Below are positions 162-6,547 of a DNA stretch of 38,843 bases, piece after piece (position 1 is the stretch's first letter; each line of letters opens with the position of its first letter). Below the pieces are notes generated by a model that made no database searches, was not told the origin of the DNA, and was given only the letters and a program-made list of their open reading frames with translations. The DNA is from Elusimicrobia bacterium HGW-Elusimicrobia-1 (GTDB lineage Bacteria; Elusimicrobiota; Endomicrobiia; PHAN01): NCBI GenBank assembly GCA_002841695.1, contig PHAN01000020.1, forward strand, positions 1 to 38,843, given 5' to 3'. A program made the translations under genes and the position numbers.

Positions 162-2867
162 TCACCTGCCGCACATTCCGGCGAAATCGCAGTACTGGCA
201 ATACGCTTCGTCATCGTCGTCGGCGGCGAACGGCGCGGCGGGGTCGTGAATTTCGGCGAGAAGATTTTTTAAGGACGGCAGAAAGATTTTCTCAAGCGCT
301 TCCGACGGCTCGGACTTATCAAACACCTCGTCTTCCTTTATATCTTTGAGCGAGTAGTATGCCGCGCGGGGAGGAGCGACATTTTTGGCTTTGGAATAAA
401 GCCACGAATACAGCGGAAGTTGAAACGACCTTATGAGTTTTTTCATTTCCTTGCGGGATTCAAGAGGCGATGAAAGTTTTTTCGACGGCACGGCGTAGGC
501 GCCGGTTTTATAGTCGATGAGCCACGTTTCGGCCCCCCGCGAATCGACGCGGTCGATGCGCCCGCCGATTTTTACTTTGCGGCCGGCGGAGCCGACAATC
601 AAATCTCCCGCGACTTTTTCCTCGGCGGCGATAATCTTAAAATCTTCGTCGCGACGGGATTCGGATTTAATCGCCTGATTAAGCCGATGTCTCGCCACTT
701 CGCGCACCAGATACGCCTCGCCGCGCGACGGGCCGAGATGTTCCGCCGCTTTCTCGTCGATAATTCTGTCGAGCGTTTCTTTGGCCGACGGCGAACCGAG
801 CGATTTTTTGTCGGGGAACATCCCGAAAAACTCTCTAAGGACTTCGTGCGCGAACTCGCCTATGCCGGCGGCTTCCAACTCGCCCGAAAAATCTTGAGTT
901 TCGCGCAAACGCAGAACCGACGCGAAGTAAAACGCCGAGGGGCAGCGCATATATCTGTCGATGGAACTGGGCGAAAATGTCATAGAGTCGAGTATCGACA
1001 GACATTTTTCGCTCTTGGGGACGGAGTTTTTAGGCGGAGGCGACGCCGACGCGTTCACGCTGACCGCCTCGACGATGTCCTTCTGCCCGACGGCCACCGC
1101 GCCCGCGCGCTCGCGTTCCCAAATTATTTCCTCGACGTAGCGGCTTCTGGATTCGCGGCCGCCCTCGCGGTAAACGAGGTGCGCCTCGCGGGCGGAGTTT
1201 ACGAGTGTCATAAAGTTTTTTCTTATCGTCTTTTCGCGGTCTCTGTACGTCGGAAGTCCCAGGGATTTTTTGAGCGGAGCGGGCAGCAGAGAATCGAATC
1301 TTGAAACACCCGGCAAAACGCCTTCGTTGACGTCGAGAACTATGATTTTTTCGAATTTAAGATTGCGCGCCTCGAGCATTCCCAGCAACTGAAGTCCTTT
1401 AAGAGGAACACCCGGAAAGGGAACCGTAGCCGCCCCTACGACGGAACGCAGCACATCGTAAAGAGAGGCGCGGGACATTTTCTCGGAGGCGGCGGCGGAA
1501 CGCGACACACCTTCCAATAAACGCTCGTATCCGACGAAGAACTCCGAAGCGAACGGATACGCGCGCGAGGCCGAAGTCGCCGCGAATATGTCGAGAAGCC
1601 GCAGAAATCCTCCGGAGATTTCGCCCGGCGTGGACGCCCGCTCGAACGGCGCCGCCAGCGCGGCGTGAGCGCGGCGAAGCGATTCACGGCGTGACGCGGG
1701 AGCGGCGGCCTCTATATCGGAAAGCGAGGCGTGATGAGTTTTTATGCGGGATTTTTTCGACGCGGACGAAACGGCGGCGTGCGTTTGCTCCGGAGATTCC
1801 CCGTCGAAAAACATGGCGCGCACGTAGGGGTGGGACATCAGCCGCCTGTATTCGGCCACAAGGTAACCGCCTTCGGAGGAACGCGTTTCCTGAACTCTTA
1901 TGACGAGATCGAAAAATGAATTGATGCCGGAGCGGGACAGCGGGTAACCCAGCGAGACGTTGTATTCCGCGTCGAATCTCCCCAGCGCTTCCGTCAACAG
2001 CGGCACAAGGGCTTCCGCGCGCGGAATGATGACGGCGGTGGAGCGCGCATCGAAACCGCGGGACAGTATTTCGGCGACTTTTTTAATCTGGGAATGAGTG
2101 TCGAAAGCGCGGTAAAGTTTGACGCCGGAGGAATTCCACGACGACGGCGGCTCGTAGGAGACCTCCACGACGCGCGCGCCGCCCGACGACAATCGCGCCA
2201 GAAGGCGGGTTTCCAAAACGGTAAGGTCGGAAAATCCGCAAACGTAAAAAACATCGACGCGCGGAAAATGTTTGGAGACGTCGAGGCCGCGCGACGAGGC
2301 GGCAAAGGCCATAGGGCGGGTCATAAGACCCAGCCGCGACAACTCGGCCGCGTAGGCGTCTCTTATCGACGGAAGACGGTCGACCACCTCGGCGAGATTT
2401 TGCGGCATACCTTCGGCGGACATCGACTTTACCCTCGATAAATCGAGCGCGGCCATATCGATTTCATCGACGGTCTCAAGCAGACGGCGGCCCCACGCGG
2501 CAAACTCTCCGAAATCGCGCGGAAAAATCTTTACGCCCGAGGAACCCGCCGCGCGAAACAGCGCGAAGATTCTGTCCAGATAGGAAGCCGGTGCGGCGCC
2601 CGGCAAAAGATTGACAGCCGCGCGATCGGCCAGATCGTTTATCGACAGAAGAACCGGCGGCGCGAACGGCGATTTGACTTCGGCGCGAAGCCGGTCTACA
2701 AGATAGTACAGCGGCCGGCGGTTCGGGAATATCACCGCGCTCGACGAGAAATCGCGCGGCGCGGCGGACCCTGAGCTATGTTTGTCGGCCAGAATCATTG
2801 CCGCCAAATCGTCGATGAGGTCGCCGCCCTGAGGAACGGTTATTCTTTCGGCGGATGATTTCTTCAT
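162..2867 (-). CDS. addB: AddB-like PD-(D/E)XK exonuclease with Fe-S cluster motif
   Basis: A 901-residue protein resembling the AddB subunit of AddAB, the double-strand-break end-processing helicase-nuclease. The N-terminal two thirds look like an inactivated helicase fold with no Walker A, as is usual for AddB. The C-terminal nuclease domain starts near residue 630. It has Cys642 (RCPSAF), His674 (FAHEVL), Asp772 in GRIDR, and Asp785/Lys787 in IDYKTG. Cys890, Cys893 and Cys899 close the protein. The four cysteines match the AddB 4Fe-4S arrangement that staples the nuclease domain, and Asp772/Asp785/Lys787 are the expected catalytic residues. The start ATG overlaps the stop of the priA-like gene in an ATGA. 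An addA partner would be expected to the left, beyond the window. It could instead be a stand-alone nuclease of the same family. Confidence 0.8.
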   Translation of the reverse strand: MKKSSAERITVPQGGDLIDDLAAMILADKHSSGSAAPRDFSSSAVIFPNRRPLYYLVDRLRAEVKSPFAPPVLLSINDLADRAAVNLLPGAAPASYLDRIFALFRAAGSSGVKIFPRDFGEFAAWGRRLLETVDEIDMAALDLSRVKSMSAEGMPQNLAEVVDRLPSIRDAYAAELSRLGLMTRPMAFAASSRGLDVSKHFPRVDVFYVCGFSDLTVLETRLLARLSSGGARVVEVSYEPPSSWNSSGVKLYRAFDTHSQIKKVAEILSRGFDARSTAVIIPRAEALVPLLTEALGRFDAEYNVSLGYPLSRSGINSFFDLVIRVQETRSSEGGYLVAEYRRLMSHPYVRAMFFDGESPEQTHAAVSSASKKSRIKTHHASLSDIEAAAPASRRESLRRAHAALAAPFERASTPGEISGGFLRLLDIFAATSASRAYPFASEFFVGYERLLEGVSRSAAASEKMSRASLYDVLRSVVGAATVPFPGVPLKGLQLLGMLEARNLKFEKIIVLDVNEGVLPGVSRFDSLLPAPLKKSLGLPTYRDREKTIRKNFMTLVNSAREAHLVYREGGRESRSRYVEEIIWERERAGAVAVGQKDIVEAVSVNASASPPPKNSVPKSEKCLSILDSMTFSPSSIDRYMRCPSAFYFASVLRLRETQDFSGELEAAGIGEFAHEVLREFFGMFPDKKSLGSPSAKETLDRIIDEKAAEHLGPSRGEAYLVREVARHRLNQAIKSESRRDEDFKIIAAEEKVAGDLIVGSAGRKVKIGGRIDRVDSRGAETWLIDYKTGAYAVPSKKLSSPLESRKEMKKLIRSFQLPLYSWLYSKAKNVAPPRAAYYSLKDIKEDEVFDKSEPSEALEKIFLPSLKNLLAEIHDPAAPFAADDDDEAYCQYCDFAGMCGR

Positions 2868-4741
2868 AGCACGGCCGCGTCCACGTTCGCGACAACCCCC
2901 GACGCCGCGCGGCCAGAAAGCAGATAATTTCTGAGCGCTGCCGACGGCGCGGAGTATTTTATCATTACCTTGTATATGTAATTGCCCCTGAGCCGTTTTC
3001 TTGGCCCCGGCGACGGTCCCAGCGCCTCGACGCCCTCGGCGGCAAGCGCGTTGAGACCTTCGACGGCCCTGACGGCCGCCGCGAAAACTTTCTTTTCATT
3101 TTTCCCCGCGAAGGTCATCGCCGCGAGGCCTCCGTAGGGCGGATATCCGAGTTCTTTTCTGGCGGAAAGTTCGGCGGCATAGAAATCGCCGAAACTTTTG
3201 GCAAAAATATCCCCCGCGCCGGCCAGACGGGACGCCGGAAAAACCGCCAAACGCGCTCCCCCCGCGAAATCAGCGTATTCGGCGGCGCGCAGGAAAGATC
3301 TCTCGGCGGCCGTAAACTCGGGATGCGCCATATCAAGACCGGCGTCGGTTATCGCCACGACAAGAGTTTTTTTCTTCGTCAGATAGGGCGGGATGGGCGA
3401 TGTTGTAACGATAAAATCCGCGTCCGCGACGTCATCGACATCGCTCGACAGCGATGAGACCGTCGCGACTTTGGCTGCGGGATAAAGCCGCTTAATCTCC
3501 GAGGCCATCCCGCCCGCGCCGAAAGACAGCGACTTGGCCTCCGACGAGCCGCACTTGGGGCAGCGCGGCGTCGCTCCGAAAGTTTTGGAGCAATACGGAC
3601 ATCTGAAATCCGCGACGCCGTTTGTTTCCACAAGAGACAAAGCCACGTCGCAGTCGGGACATTTGATTATGGCGGAACAAGCGCGGCAATAATAGCCGGA
3701 TAAAGTGCCTTTGCGACCGGAGTGAATTATGGCCGATGAACCCACCGCGTAAGCGGCGTCAAGCATCGATGAGAGACGTTCGGATACCTGCGACGGACGG
3801 GAGAAATCCGCCGGGCGCTCCGTCTCAAAAGGCGAGGCGGAATATTCGGCAGGCATATTGACGGGACGTTTTAGTGCTCCGGACGAGAGCATTTCGAATA
3901 TCTGCGACGAGAATACGAGGCCGCCGAACACGGCCTCTACGCCGTTTATGACGGAAGCGGCCGCCAGCGCGGCGTCGCGGGAAACGTAGTATGGCTTTCT
4001 GCCGTCTTTGTGGCCGTAATCGTAATCGCGCTCGATTATGATTTTTGAAAGTTTCGACGGGCGAAGGAAAACGGCCCGTCGCGCGCCGACGATAAAATGT
4101 CCGCCTCCCGAGGATATCTTCCCGAAAAAACTCTCAATGGCCGAAAGCGACGCCGCGGAGTTCCACTCTATCGGCGACAAATCGGCGAAACGAGCCAAGG
4201 CATAGCGCACGTCGGAAACGGCGGGCATAACCAGCAGCGCGCTTTCCCCCCGCGCCAGCGTTTCGGCGACGATTGCGCGATAGCTCTCGAAACGCTCCTC
4301 GAATTTCGCGCACACAACGGAAACCGGCGGGCGGTCTTTCTTCCGTGAAGCCGACCGCGAATGTTCAGCGCCCCGCGGCTCAAGCGCGGAAGAAAAAAGA
4401 GGGATCGTGATTCTTAAATCGGCCGGATACAGAAGGTCGCAGAAAACCGCCGGAGAGGCAAGGCAGCGTTCCGCCATATTTTCGGCGAAGCGAAGATTAT
4501 CCGCGTCCAGCACAGGTTTATCGTCGATAACCGACAAAACGCTTTTCAGGGCGGATTCCCCGAACGCGCTTTTTTGTTTTTCCTTTAACACGTAACCGCG
4601 GCGACGGGAACGGCCGAAAGGCGCTTCGACCCGTCTTCCGACTAACGATAAATCACCGGGGGTCTCTTTTGCGGAATCGGCTCCGACGATATAATCGAAA
4701 GGTCCGTAAGGCGGGGCGTTAAAAACCACTTCAATAATCAT
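2864..4741 (-). CDS. priA: PriA-like replication restart protein with degenerate helicase motifs
   Basis: A 625-residue homologue of primosomal protein N' (PriA is about 730 in E. coli). The architecture is recognisable: an N-terminal DNA-binding domain opening VVFNAPPYGPFDY, a central zinc-binding block with eight cysteines (352, 355, 361, 364, 381, 384, 394, 397), and a C-terminal region with ELGYPPYG (about 530-537). The ATPase signatures are not intact. No GxTGSGKT Walker A is found where expected (about 144-156). The DEEH box position reads IERDY (236-240). The GTQMxxKGxDF position reads VTTSPI, and the GRAGR arginine-finger motif reads DFAGGAR. By analogy with actinobacterial PriA-like proteins it may load or bridge at forks without unwinding. 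It starts 58 bp after the SpoIID-like gene and overlaps addB by 4 bp. The family call is secure; the loss of helicase activity is inferred. Confidence 0.85.
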   Translation of the reverse strand: MIIEVVFNAPPYGPFDYIVGADSAKETPGDLSLVGRRVEAPFGRSRRRGYVLKEKQKSAFGESALKSVLSVIDDKPVLDADNLRFAENMAERCLASPAVFCDLLYPADLRITIPLFSSALEPRGAEHSRSASRKKDRPPVSVVCAKFEERFESYRAIVAETLARGESALLVMPAVSDVRYALARFADLSPIEWNSAASLSAIESFFGKISSGGGHFIVGARRAVFLRPSKLSKIIIERDYDYGHKDGRKPYYVSRDAALAAASVINGVEAVFGGLVFSSQIFEMLSSGALKRPVNMPAEYSASPFETERPADFSRPSQVSERLSSMLDAAYAVGSSAIIHSGRKGTLSGYYCRACSAIIKCPDCDVALSLVETNGVADFRCPYCSKTFGATPRCPKCGSSEAKSLSFGAGGMASEIKRLYPAAKVATVSSLSSDVDDVADADFIVTTSPIPPYLTKKKTLVVAITDAGLDMAHPEFTAAERSFLRAAEYADFAGGARLAVFPASRLAGAGDIFAKSFGDFYAAELSARKELGYPPYGGLAAMTFAGKNEKKVFAAAVRAVEGLNALAAEGVEALGPSPGPRKRLRGNYIYKVMIKYSAPSAALRNYLLSGRAASGVVANVDAAVL

Positions 4742-4799: not shown

Positions 4800-5972
4800 T
4801 CAATCCACCACTTTTTTTATGTATGTGCCCGGATAGTAGAACCCGAGTATGTCGCGGTAATTCCTGCCGGAGTCGGCCATACCCTTGGCGCCCGCCTGGC
4901 ACATCCCGACACCGTGTCCCCAGCCCTGTCCGCGGAATTCGAAGGAGTCCCTTCCGCGCACAATGGCATCGAGCTTGGTGCTTTTCATTTTCCACGAGTC
5001 CACGGCCAGACGGAATTTTCCCGCTTTTACGACGAGCGACCCGCCGGAATGAATTACTTTGATGAAACGCGCGCGGCCGGATACGTTTCTGGATACCACT
5101 TCAAGCGAGCGGATTTTCCCTACTTTGTATCCCGCGGCATTCAGGCGGGTTCGTATGTACGCCTCATCTATAACTGAACTCCATTTGAAATGCCTGTACC
5201 ATCCGCAGTGAGGACATTTTTTGGCGATAAGATAAGTTATCGGAGAGCTTGAAACGTCCCAAACGTTGGACGGCTCCTCGGTATAGCCGCCGCAGGATGC
5301 GTGAAAAACAGTGTTGGCCGGTTCGCCCTTATCGTCCGCGAGAATCTCGCCCGCCGTCTCGACAACCGCCTTGTCCGTCGAGGAATGCTCGCCCGCCGCG
5401 CCGATGTAAACCTGGCAGTGCACCGTGGGGCACATATCGAATCCGTCTTTCGCGTGGCGGCCGGAATTCCGCCAGACAAATCCGCGGGCGGCGACCGCCT
5501 GGGCTTTGAGCGCTTCAAGCGGCCAGTCGTGACTCATTTCGGCCGCCAACACCCCTCTGACATAATTGTCTATGCCGAGTTCGTTTACGACCGTAAGACG
5601 CGAACCGGCGGCGGAAACTATTACGCTGTCGCGATAGTTTTTACCGTTTACTCTTACGAAACCATCGGACGAGGCGGGAGTAATTCTTAAGGGAGATGAA
5701 TACGACTTGCCGTCGATAACCACTCTGCCGCGAACAGCCGTGACAAAATAATCGTCGCCTTTTCTGAAACGCGCGCCGACGGGATTTTGCATTTCGTAGA
5801 GCTTGTAATCGTCGCCGGCAAGATTGAAGCTGTCGACTTTTACTATGAGGCCCACGCGCACTATATCGCGGGCTTCGGCCGCCGAAAAAACCGATATCGC
5901 CGATGATAAAAGAAACATCGCGGCGACAGATGAGCGAAAAATCCGCGGGCGGTTTTTTGTCGTCATGATCAT
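4800..5972 (-). CDS. SpoIID/LytB-domain peptidoglycan glycan-strand hydrolase
   Basis: About 390 residues, probably exported. An N-terminal basic stretch and hydrophobic segment (SSVAAMFLLSSAISVFSAA) ending near AEA-RD looks like a signal peptide. The SpoIID domain is clear: IDNYVRGVLAAEMSHDWP then EALKAQAVAAR, whose glutamate (Glu143 counted from the second Met) corresponds to the catalytic acid of SpoIID lytic transglycosylases. It also has CPTVHCQVY, FHASCGGYTE and the C-terminal GQGWGHGVGMCQAGA. The family cleaves or remodels glycan strands stripped of peptides. A longer arginine-rich reading upstream lacks family similarity. I chose ATG 5972 because it overlaps the queH stop as ATGA; a second ATG at 5966 is equally possible. 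SpoIID-domain proteins are common in non-sporulating bacteria, so this does not imply sporulation. Confidence 0.85.
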   Translation of the reverse strand: MIMTTKNRPRIFRSSVAAMFLLSSAISVFSAAEARDIVRVGLIVKVDSFNLAGDDYKLYEMQNPVGARFRKGDDYFVTAVRGRVVIDGKSYSSPLRITPASSDGFVRVNGKNYRDSVIVSAAGSRLTVVNELGIDNYVRGVLAAEMSHDWPLEALKAQAVAARGFVWRNSGRHAKDGFDMCPTVHCQVYIGAAGEHSSTDKAVVETAGEILADDKGEPANTVFHASCGGYTEEPSNVWDVSSSPITYLIAKKCPHCGWYRHFKWSSVIDEAYIRTRLNAAGYKVGKIRSLEVVSRNVSGRARFIKVIHSGGSLVVKAGKFRLAVDSWKMKSTKLDAIVRGRDSFEFRGQGWGHGVGMCQAGAKGMADSGRNYRDILGFYYPGTYIKKVVD

Positions 5973-6547
5973 TTTTTTGTCGATGGCCTCAACCGCGCTT
6001 CCGCGCGGGCGGCGAGTTCGGCGGCGCGTTCCGCGGCGCTGGCCGGACATCCGCAGTATTTCTGGGAGTAGAGACCTTTTTGCCGGGCCATATTCTTGCC
6101 CTGATAATAAGCCGGACGGGAATCCAGATATAGAAATTCCGCGCCGAATTTCTTCGCGGCTTCGCGCGCCGCGGAAACCGCAAGTTCATGTTCCTGATAA
6201 GGGCTGGCAAGGAGCGTCGTCGAAAATGCGTCAAAATTCATTTCCGAGGCGGTACGCGCGACCTCGGAGATTCTCTTTTCGTAGCAAACCGCGCATCTTG
6301 CGGGTTTCGGCGCGGCAAGCGCGGCGGCAAAATTGCGGGAATCGGCGTCGACGGGCGCGGCAATGGTATCGACACCCTTCATCTCGTTGAACTTTATCAG
6401 AGATTCCCTGCGAAGCGCGAGTTCCGCATCGGGACCGATATTGGGATTAAACCAAAAGCCGGTAACGTCGAAACCCGACGGTATTATTTCAAAAAATGAC
6501 GCGGAGCAAATGGCGCAGCACTGATGAACGAGTATCTTTCGGGTCAT
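5969..6547 (-). CDS. queH: Epoxyqueuosine reductase QueH
   Basis: A 192-residue QueH (former DUF208), the non-cobalamin enzyme that reduces epoxyqueuosine to queuosine in the tRNA wobble position. Visible motifs are VHQCCAICS (Cys10, Cys11, Cys14), FWFNPNI, RCAVCYEKR (Cys85, Cys88), TTLLASPYQ and YSQKYCGCP (Cys165, Cys167). These cysteines provide the 4Fe-4S and metal ligands of the family. The reading frame continues upstream for 45 codons, but that part runs through a dispersed repeat and has no family similarity. I therefore start at ATG 6547, immediately before the conserved beta-strand. No Shine-Dalgarno is visible upstream. The stop overlaps the SpoIID-like gene by 4 bp. No other queuosine gene lies in the window. 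Confidence 0.93.
   Translation of the reverse strand: MTRKILVHQCCAICSASFFEIIPSGFDVTGFWFNPNIGPDAELALRRESLIKFNEMKGVDTIAAPVDADSRNFAAALAAPKPARCAVCYEKRISEVARTASEMNFDAFSTTLLASPYQEHELAVSAAREAAKKFGAEFLYLDSRPAYYQGKNMARQKGLYSQKYCGCPASAAERAAELAARAEARLRPSTKK

Follow-up and report, generated by a model that had tools for sequence, protein, structure and literature searches.

Whether a PriA protein that has lost its helicase motor can still serve in replication restart is the question raised by one gene in the window, the whole stretch of 38,843 nucleotides that was analysed, which is a contig of Elusimicrobia bacterium HGW-Elusimicrobia-1 (class Endomicrobiia, phylum Elusimicrobiota). The motor motifs of PriA are conserved almost everywhere. 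The earlier note on this DNA had described a PriA homologue with degenerate helicase motifs at 2864-4741, and the gene, its parts and its two neighbours are listed below.

2864..4741 (read 4741..2864), minus strand: priA homologue, 625 aa, ATG start, degenerate helicase motifs
4433..4732, minus strand: PriA 3' DNA-binding domain (3'BD), residues 4-103 (Pfam PF17764 PriA_3primeBD, 7.1e-17)
4277..4303, minus strand: Walker A (motif I) position, FEERFESYR, residues 147-155, with the lysine replaced by Arg150
4007..4042, minus strand: Walker B (motif II) position, IIIERDYDYGHK, residues 234-245, identical in the congener
3905..3928, minus strand: motif III position, FGGLVFSS, residues 272-279
3551..3688, minus strand: cysteine-rich zinc region, Cys 352, 355, 361, 364, 381, 384, 394 and 397
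3380..3409, minus strand: motif V position, VTTSPIPPYL, residues 445-454
3248..3277, minus strand: motif VI position, YADFAGGARL, residues 489-498, GRxGR lost
2927..3139, minus strand: PriA C-terminal domain, residues 535-605 (Pfam PF18074 PriA_C, 6.9e-10)
162..2867, minus strand: AddB-like/PD-(D/E)XK protein, downstream neighbour, same order in the congener
4800..6050, minus strand: SpoIID/LytB-domain protein, upstream neighbour, same order in the congener

The start of the AddB-like gene and the priA stop share 4 bases, and the rest of the surroundings consists of ordinary housekeeping genes (queH-like, ruvB, ruvA, ruvC and yebC). The AddB-like protein (162-2867) is itself divergent, with TIGR03623 and the addB models as its best NCBIfam matches, all of them far under cut-off, and its addA-type partner lies on a different contig (G000:C4, a frame of 1092 aa).

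Homology to PriA extends over the length of the protein. In an hhalign comparison with five intact PriAs from its class, the probability was 100% (E 1.6e-49) over 613 columns at 25% identity, and a sequence search of the PDB gave PriA matches only (E 3e-20). The top NCBIfam matches are PriA models (in the 1e-47 range, under the model cut-offs), and in Pfam both PriA_3primeBD and PriA_C score above the gathering threshold. The PRK14873 models of NCBIfam, which we take to represent the PriA-like proteins of actinobacteria, match weakly and score under the ordinary PriA models, so these proteins are no close relatives of the one studied here. Actinobacterial PriA-like proteins are reported to have no detectable helicase motifs; no usable paper on this loss was found in the open-licence literature. 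Within the 3'BD, residues F15, D16, Y17, G43 and K66 correspond to F16, D17, Y18, G37 and K61 of E. coli PriA. The retention of the eight zinc cysteines and of ELGYPPYG, noticed earlier, was confirmed: all eight cysteines are present, and ELGYPPYGG stands at residues 530-538, leading into the C-terminal domain. The residues on which PriB docks in E. coli, D438 and H483, are absent, as they also are in intact relatives of the class. As to the further claim that the fold is kept, it is borne out at the level of the alignment, and an AlphaFold2 model computed from the protein and one relative was discarded as unusable (mean pLDDT 36). With full-length homology and domain order kept, the protein can be regarded from its sequence as a PriA orthologue, but not as a PriA helicase, because only 2 of the 15 catalytic residues checked in the alignment are kept.

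All seven motif positions are changed relative to E. coli PriA, which agrees with the degeneration first described: VTGSGKTEVY has become AKFEERFESY at motif I (with arginine for K230), VPEIGLTPQ has become MPAVSDVRY at motif Ia, VIDEEHD has become IIERDYD at motif II, GSATPA has become GGLVFS at motif III, LNRRGFA has become SGRKGTL at motif IV, IGTQMLAKG has become VTTSPIPPY at motif V and VAGRAGRA has become YADFAGGA at motif VI. A Pfam scan of the protein and of its congener's counterpart found no DEAD, ResIII or Helicase_C domain, while the identical scan found all three in two intact relatives of the class. Intact Endomicrobiia PriAs (e.g. L010, L006 and L007) have the same domain order, the eight zinc cysteines and no E. 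coli winged-helix insert; unlike the protein studied here, they keep all the helicase motifs together with these Pfam matches. Strings of the GK[S/T] and DExH/DExD types are missing throughout the full sequence, so that a shifted P-loop, named beforehand as a refuting outcome, was not found. We infer that the binding and hydrolysis of ATP in the manner of PriA have been lost, in which case the protein could not unwind the lagging arm.

The gene is the only one of its kind in the genome. The full-genome search for a second, intact priA, set beforehand as a refuting test, returned one PriA match in 2.06 Mb at 96.9% completeness and no second intact copy, the further matches to PriA models being mfd, recG and uvrB. 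Likewise, each degenerate-PriA genome of the class has one PriA, and a second, intact copy was found in none of them. With no second PriA and no displaced P-loop, the proposal that the protein is helicase-dead and still a functional restart factor is very likely to be right. The sole public relative recovered by a scan of genome contigs was the Endomicrobiia MAG Yes70-21, a genome of the same genus, whose PriA is 59% identical and has degenerate motif positions as well; the unbroken KLSKIIIERDYDYGHKDGR, which covers the altered motif II region, is identical in both. Between the two genes dN is 0.33 and dS is 1.55, the latter near saturation, giving a dN/dS of about 0.2, and the differences fall mostly at third codon positions. 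Because this ratio is accompanied by the same state in a congener of 59% identity, priA is maintained rather than decaying.

The distribution of constraint along the protein was also compared between intact and degenerate PriAs at matched rpoB identity. The helicase core was more conserved than the DNA-binding end domains in all 171 intact pairs, in contrast to just 11% of 120 degenerate pairs, and the 3'BD of degenerate PriAs was about equally conserved as that of intact PriAs at equal rpoB distance. As the pairs are non-independent, this reversal is a description and not a test, with a uniform direction; it is how a protein released from its motor and still selected for DNA binding should look in sequence. 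The lineage of the window's genus (f1) evolves fast overall, as its long rpoB branch indicates, which could exaggerate the apparent motif loss but would not explain a selective reversal of domain constraint.

A PriA without motor activity has a precedent. The PriA of Deinococcus radiodurans is a natural pseudohelicase, which has neither ATPase nor helicase activity and binds forks and DnaB (Lopper et al. 2015, PMC4504706), and in Deinococcus-Thermus PriAs the Walker A lysine is replaced by arginine and motifs I and II are poor (PMC4504706). Like the D. radiodurans protein, the homologue in the window, known here from its sequence, has arginine for the Walker A lysine and has lost Walker B. In contrast to the poor motifs I and II documented for Deinococcus-Thermus, the loss here extends to all seven motif positions; the protein also comes from another phylum, inside which the tree described below shows several losses. 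Thus, the kind of protein is already known, and by sequence the present example is more eroded and belongs to a new phylum.

Work on E. coli bears on the consequences. The K230R change abolishes the ATPase of E. coli PriA (cited in PMC4504706), and arginine is also the natural replacement of the Walker A lysine in the window's protein and in two further families, f2 and f5. E. coli PriA holds every arm of the fork, and the lagging-strand ssDNA threads a pore whose frame consists of the cysteine-rich region, helicase domain 2 and the C-terminal domain (PMC10175261). The earlier note had held that fork opening must then fall to another helicase; this does not follow, because E. coli PriA K230A, although ATPase-dead, loads DnaB onto forks in vitro with its partners (PMC10175261) and ATPase-dead priA alleles sustain viability and primosome assembly (reviewed in PMC4504706). 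The E. coli mutants differ from the present case in carrying a single engineered change and in working with PriB, DnaT and DnaC, whereas the genome studied here has DciA.

The genome encodes DnaB as well as DciA, the latter adjoining dnaN, and its SSB keeps the acidic tip (DEVPF). A full-length DnaC/DnaI-type loader was not found in it; across the genomes searched, full-length matches occurred in G002 and G038 only, and the remaining genomes gave weak partial AAA+ matches. Taken together, we favour the reading, at a probability of roughly 0.75, that the protein is a PriA pseudohelicase and the sole orthologue of its genome, acting as a fork-binding scaffold that brings in DnaB without unwinding, with DciA as the probable loader. 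Both the binding of forks and the recruitment of DnaB and DciA are what we infer for it. The protein would recognise forks and D-loops through the 3'BD, the zinc region and the C-terminal domain, would serve as a scaffold for the delivery of DnaB, with DciA predicted to take the loader's place, and would possibly dock on the SSB tail. A separate helicase would be required only on forks with a duplex lagging arm, and the extra PcrA-like helicase of the genus is a candidate for this step, although the other degenerate families are without it.

This extra helicase is also the candidate, in this genus, under a different view, in which the PriA motor is dead and restart forks are unwound by some other helicase. 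Besides PcrA and AddA, the genome and its congener encode a second UvrD/PcrA-type helicase (808 aa, G000:C4:101444-103870, L191:545-2971; best NCBIfam match pcrA), and RecG is present. However, the gene is missing from f2, f5 and most of the f4 genomes tested, so that it is no general substitute, and a helicase-dead PriA is enough when the lagging arm of the fork is single-stranded (PMC10175261); we therefore consider this view unlikely. Somewhat more doubtful is a PriA turned to a new use, which has given up replisome loading and performs another task at DNA ends, for example as a partner of the adjacent AddAB-type nuclease. The 4-base overlap with the addB-like gene and the adjacency of the two genes in both members of the genus would fit such a partnership, but in f2, f4 and f5, where the order is coaBC-uracil-DNA glycosylase-priA, the motor is lost too; moreover, the genome has no other PriA, and PriA-type restart is broadly conserved.

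The very low identity with intact PriAs (20-30%) and the fast evolution of the lineage in the rpoB tree might instead indicate a priA that is decaying on its way to loss while restart proceeds by another path. We regard this as very improbable: the reading frame is open in all 12 degenerate genomes of the class, except for one that is split across two contigs (G011), the dN/dS is about 0.21 with third-position changes dominating, the eight zinc cysteines are retained in most lineages, and the DNA-binding domains match those of intact PriAs in conservation when the rpoB distance is equal. That the protein is a divergent but active ATPase whose nucleotide site has shifted is scarcely credible, as nothing in the sequence of the protein was found to support it, GK[S/T] and DExx strings are absent throughout and the seven motifs are altered together.

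The pseudohelicase reading gains a wider setting from a survey of PriA in 96 genomes of the class and a 245-genome sample of the phylum, in which the scores form groups. The degenerate PriA is no isolated case: both members of the genus have it, and it turns up again across the phylum, the count being five families within the class and two beyond it. The 22 intact Elusimicrobiota PriAs examined (f3, f7-f10, f12, f14, f15 and f17-f25) hold 14-15 of the 15 catalytic residues and every sampled PriA of f1, f2, f4, f5, f6, f13 and f16 holds at most 11, a bimodal distribution. The PriAs of f2 and f5 have lost the motor and yet exceed the PriA cut-off of NCBIfam, and in the degenerate-PriA genomes homology-based annotation errs in assigning the label 'primosomal protein N' helicase'.

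On an rpoB tree of the phylum (45 genomes, G129 left out), the intact or degenerate label needs three changes, and the starred branches force three. The window's genus falls beside the intact Endomicrobiia group, separate from f2/f4/f5/f6, and a single clade of all degenerate members of the class was rejected (p-AU 0.017). Three losses are a working estimate, because f1 and f4 have long branches, the tree is based on a single gene and the outgroup did not fall cleanly to one side of the root. On balance we lean towards at least three independent losses of the PriA motor in Elusimicrobiota (in this genus, in f2/f4/f5/f6 and in f13/f16), sometimes beginning with motif VI and with the DNA-binding domains still constrained. 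The order of loss is suggested by G142 (f16, L098) and G166 (f13, L103), in which Walker A and B are intact and the second arginine of motif VI (GRxGR) is missing, so that motif VI may be the first step. Elsewhere in f13 GKT is often kept while Walker B is lost, and in f16 the lysine is lost.

These results suggest that restart in these bacteria works without the PriA motor. The recurrence of its loss within one phylum is the new part, of interest to specialists; the open-licence literature yielded no paper on repeated loss of this kind within a phylum and no usable paper on PriA in Endomicrobium. If the losses are real, helicase-independent, DciA-based restart would be an accessible and repeated evolutionary state and not an oddity of Deinococcus. 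In E. coli, loading can do without the ATPase, yet the motifs are near-universal, which raises the question of what purpose the motor serves; close relatives with and without it, together with the intermediates that lost motif VI first, offer a natural comparison of the consequences of its loss.

Several further features were observed in the survey. The eight zinc cysteines are kept in most lineages with degenerate PriA, but in the alignment four of the eight are also missing from the PriAs of f4 genomes G007, G013 and G016 (L042, L043 and L044) and of f13 genome G165 (L129). In f3, the reduced genomes G056 and G065 (0.4-0.5 Mb) have PriAs scoring 440 and 367 bits, clearly under the figure of about 575-600 for the rest of the family. 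In addition, the f4 genomes G004, G007, G010 and G016 (L178, L180-L186) carry two SSB-like genes, a typical copy without the acidic C-terminal tip and a divergent copy (MNLVIFSGNLAKDAK...) ending in EEVPF or DEVPF, and it seems, from these sequences, that the usual docking tail of SSB is now carried by the divergent copy instead of the typical one.
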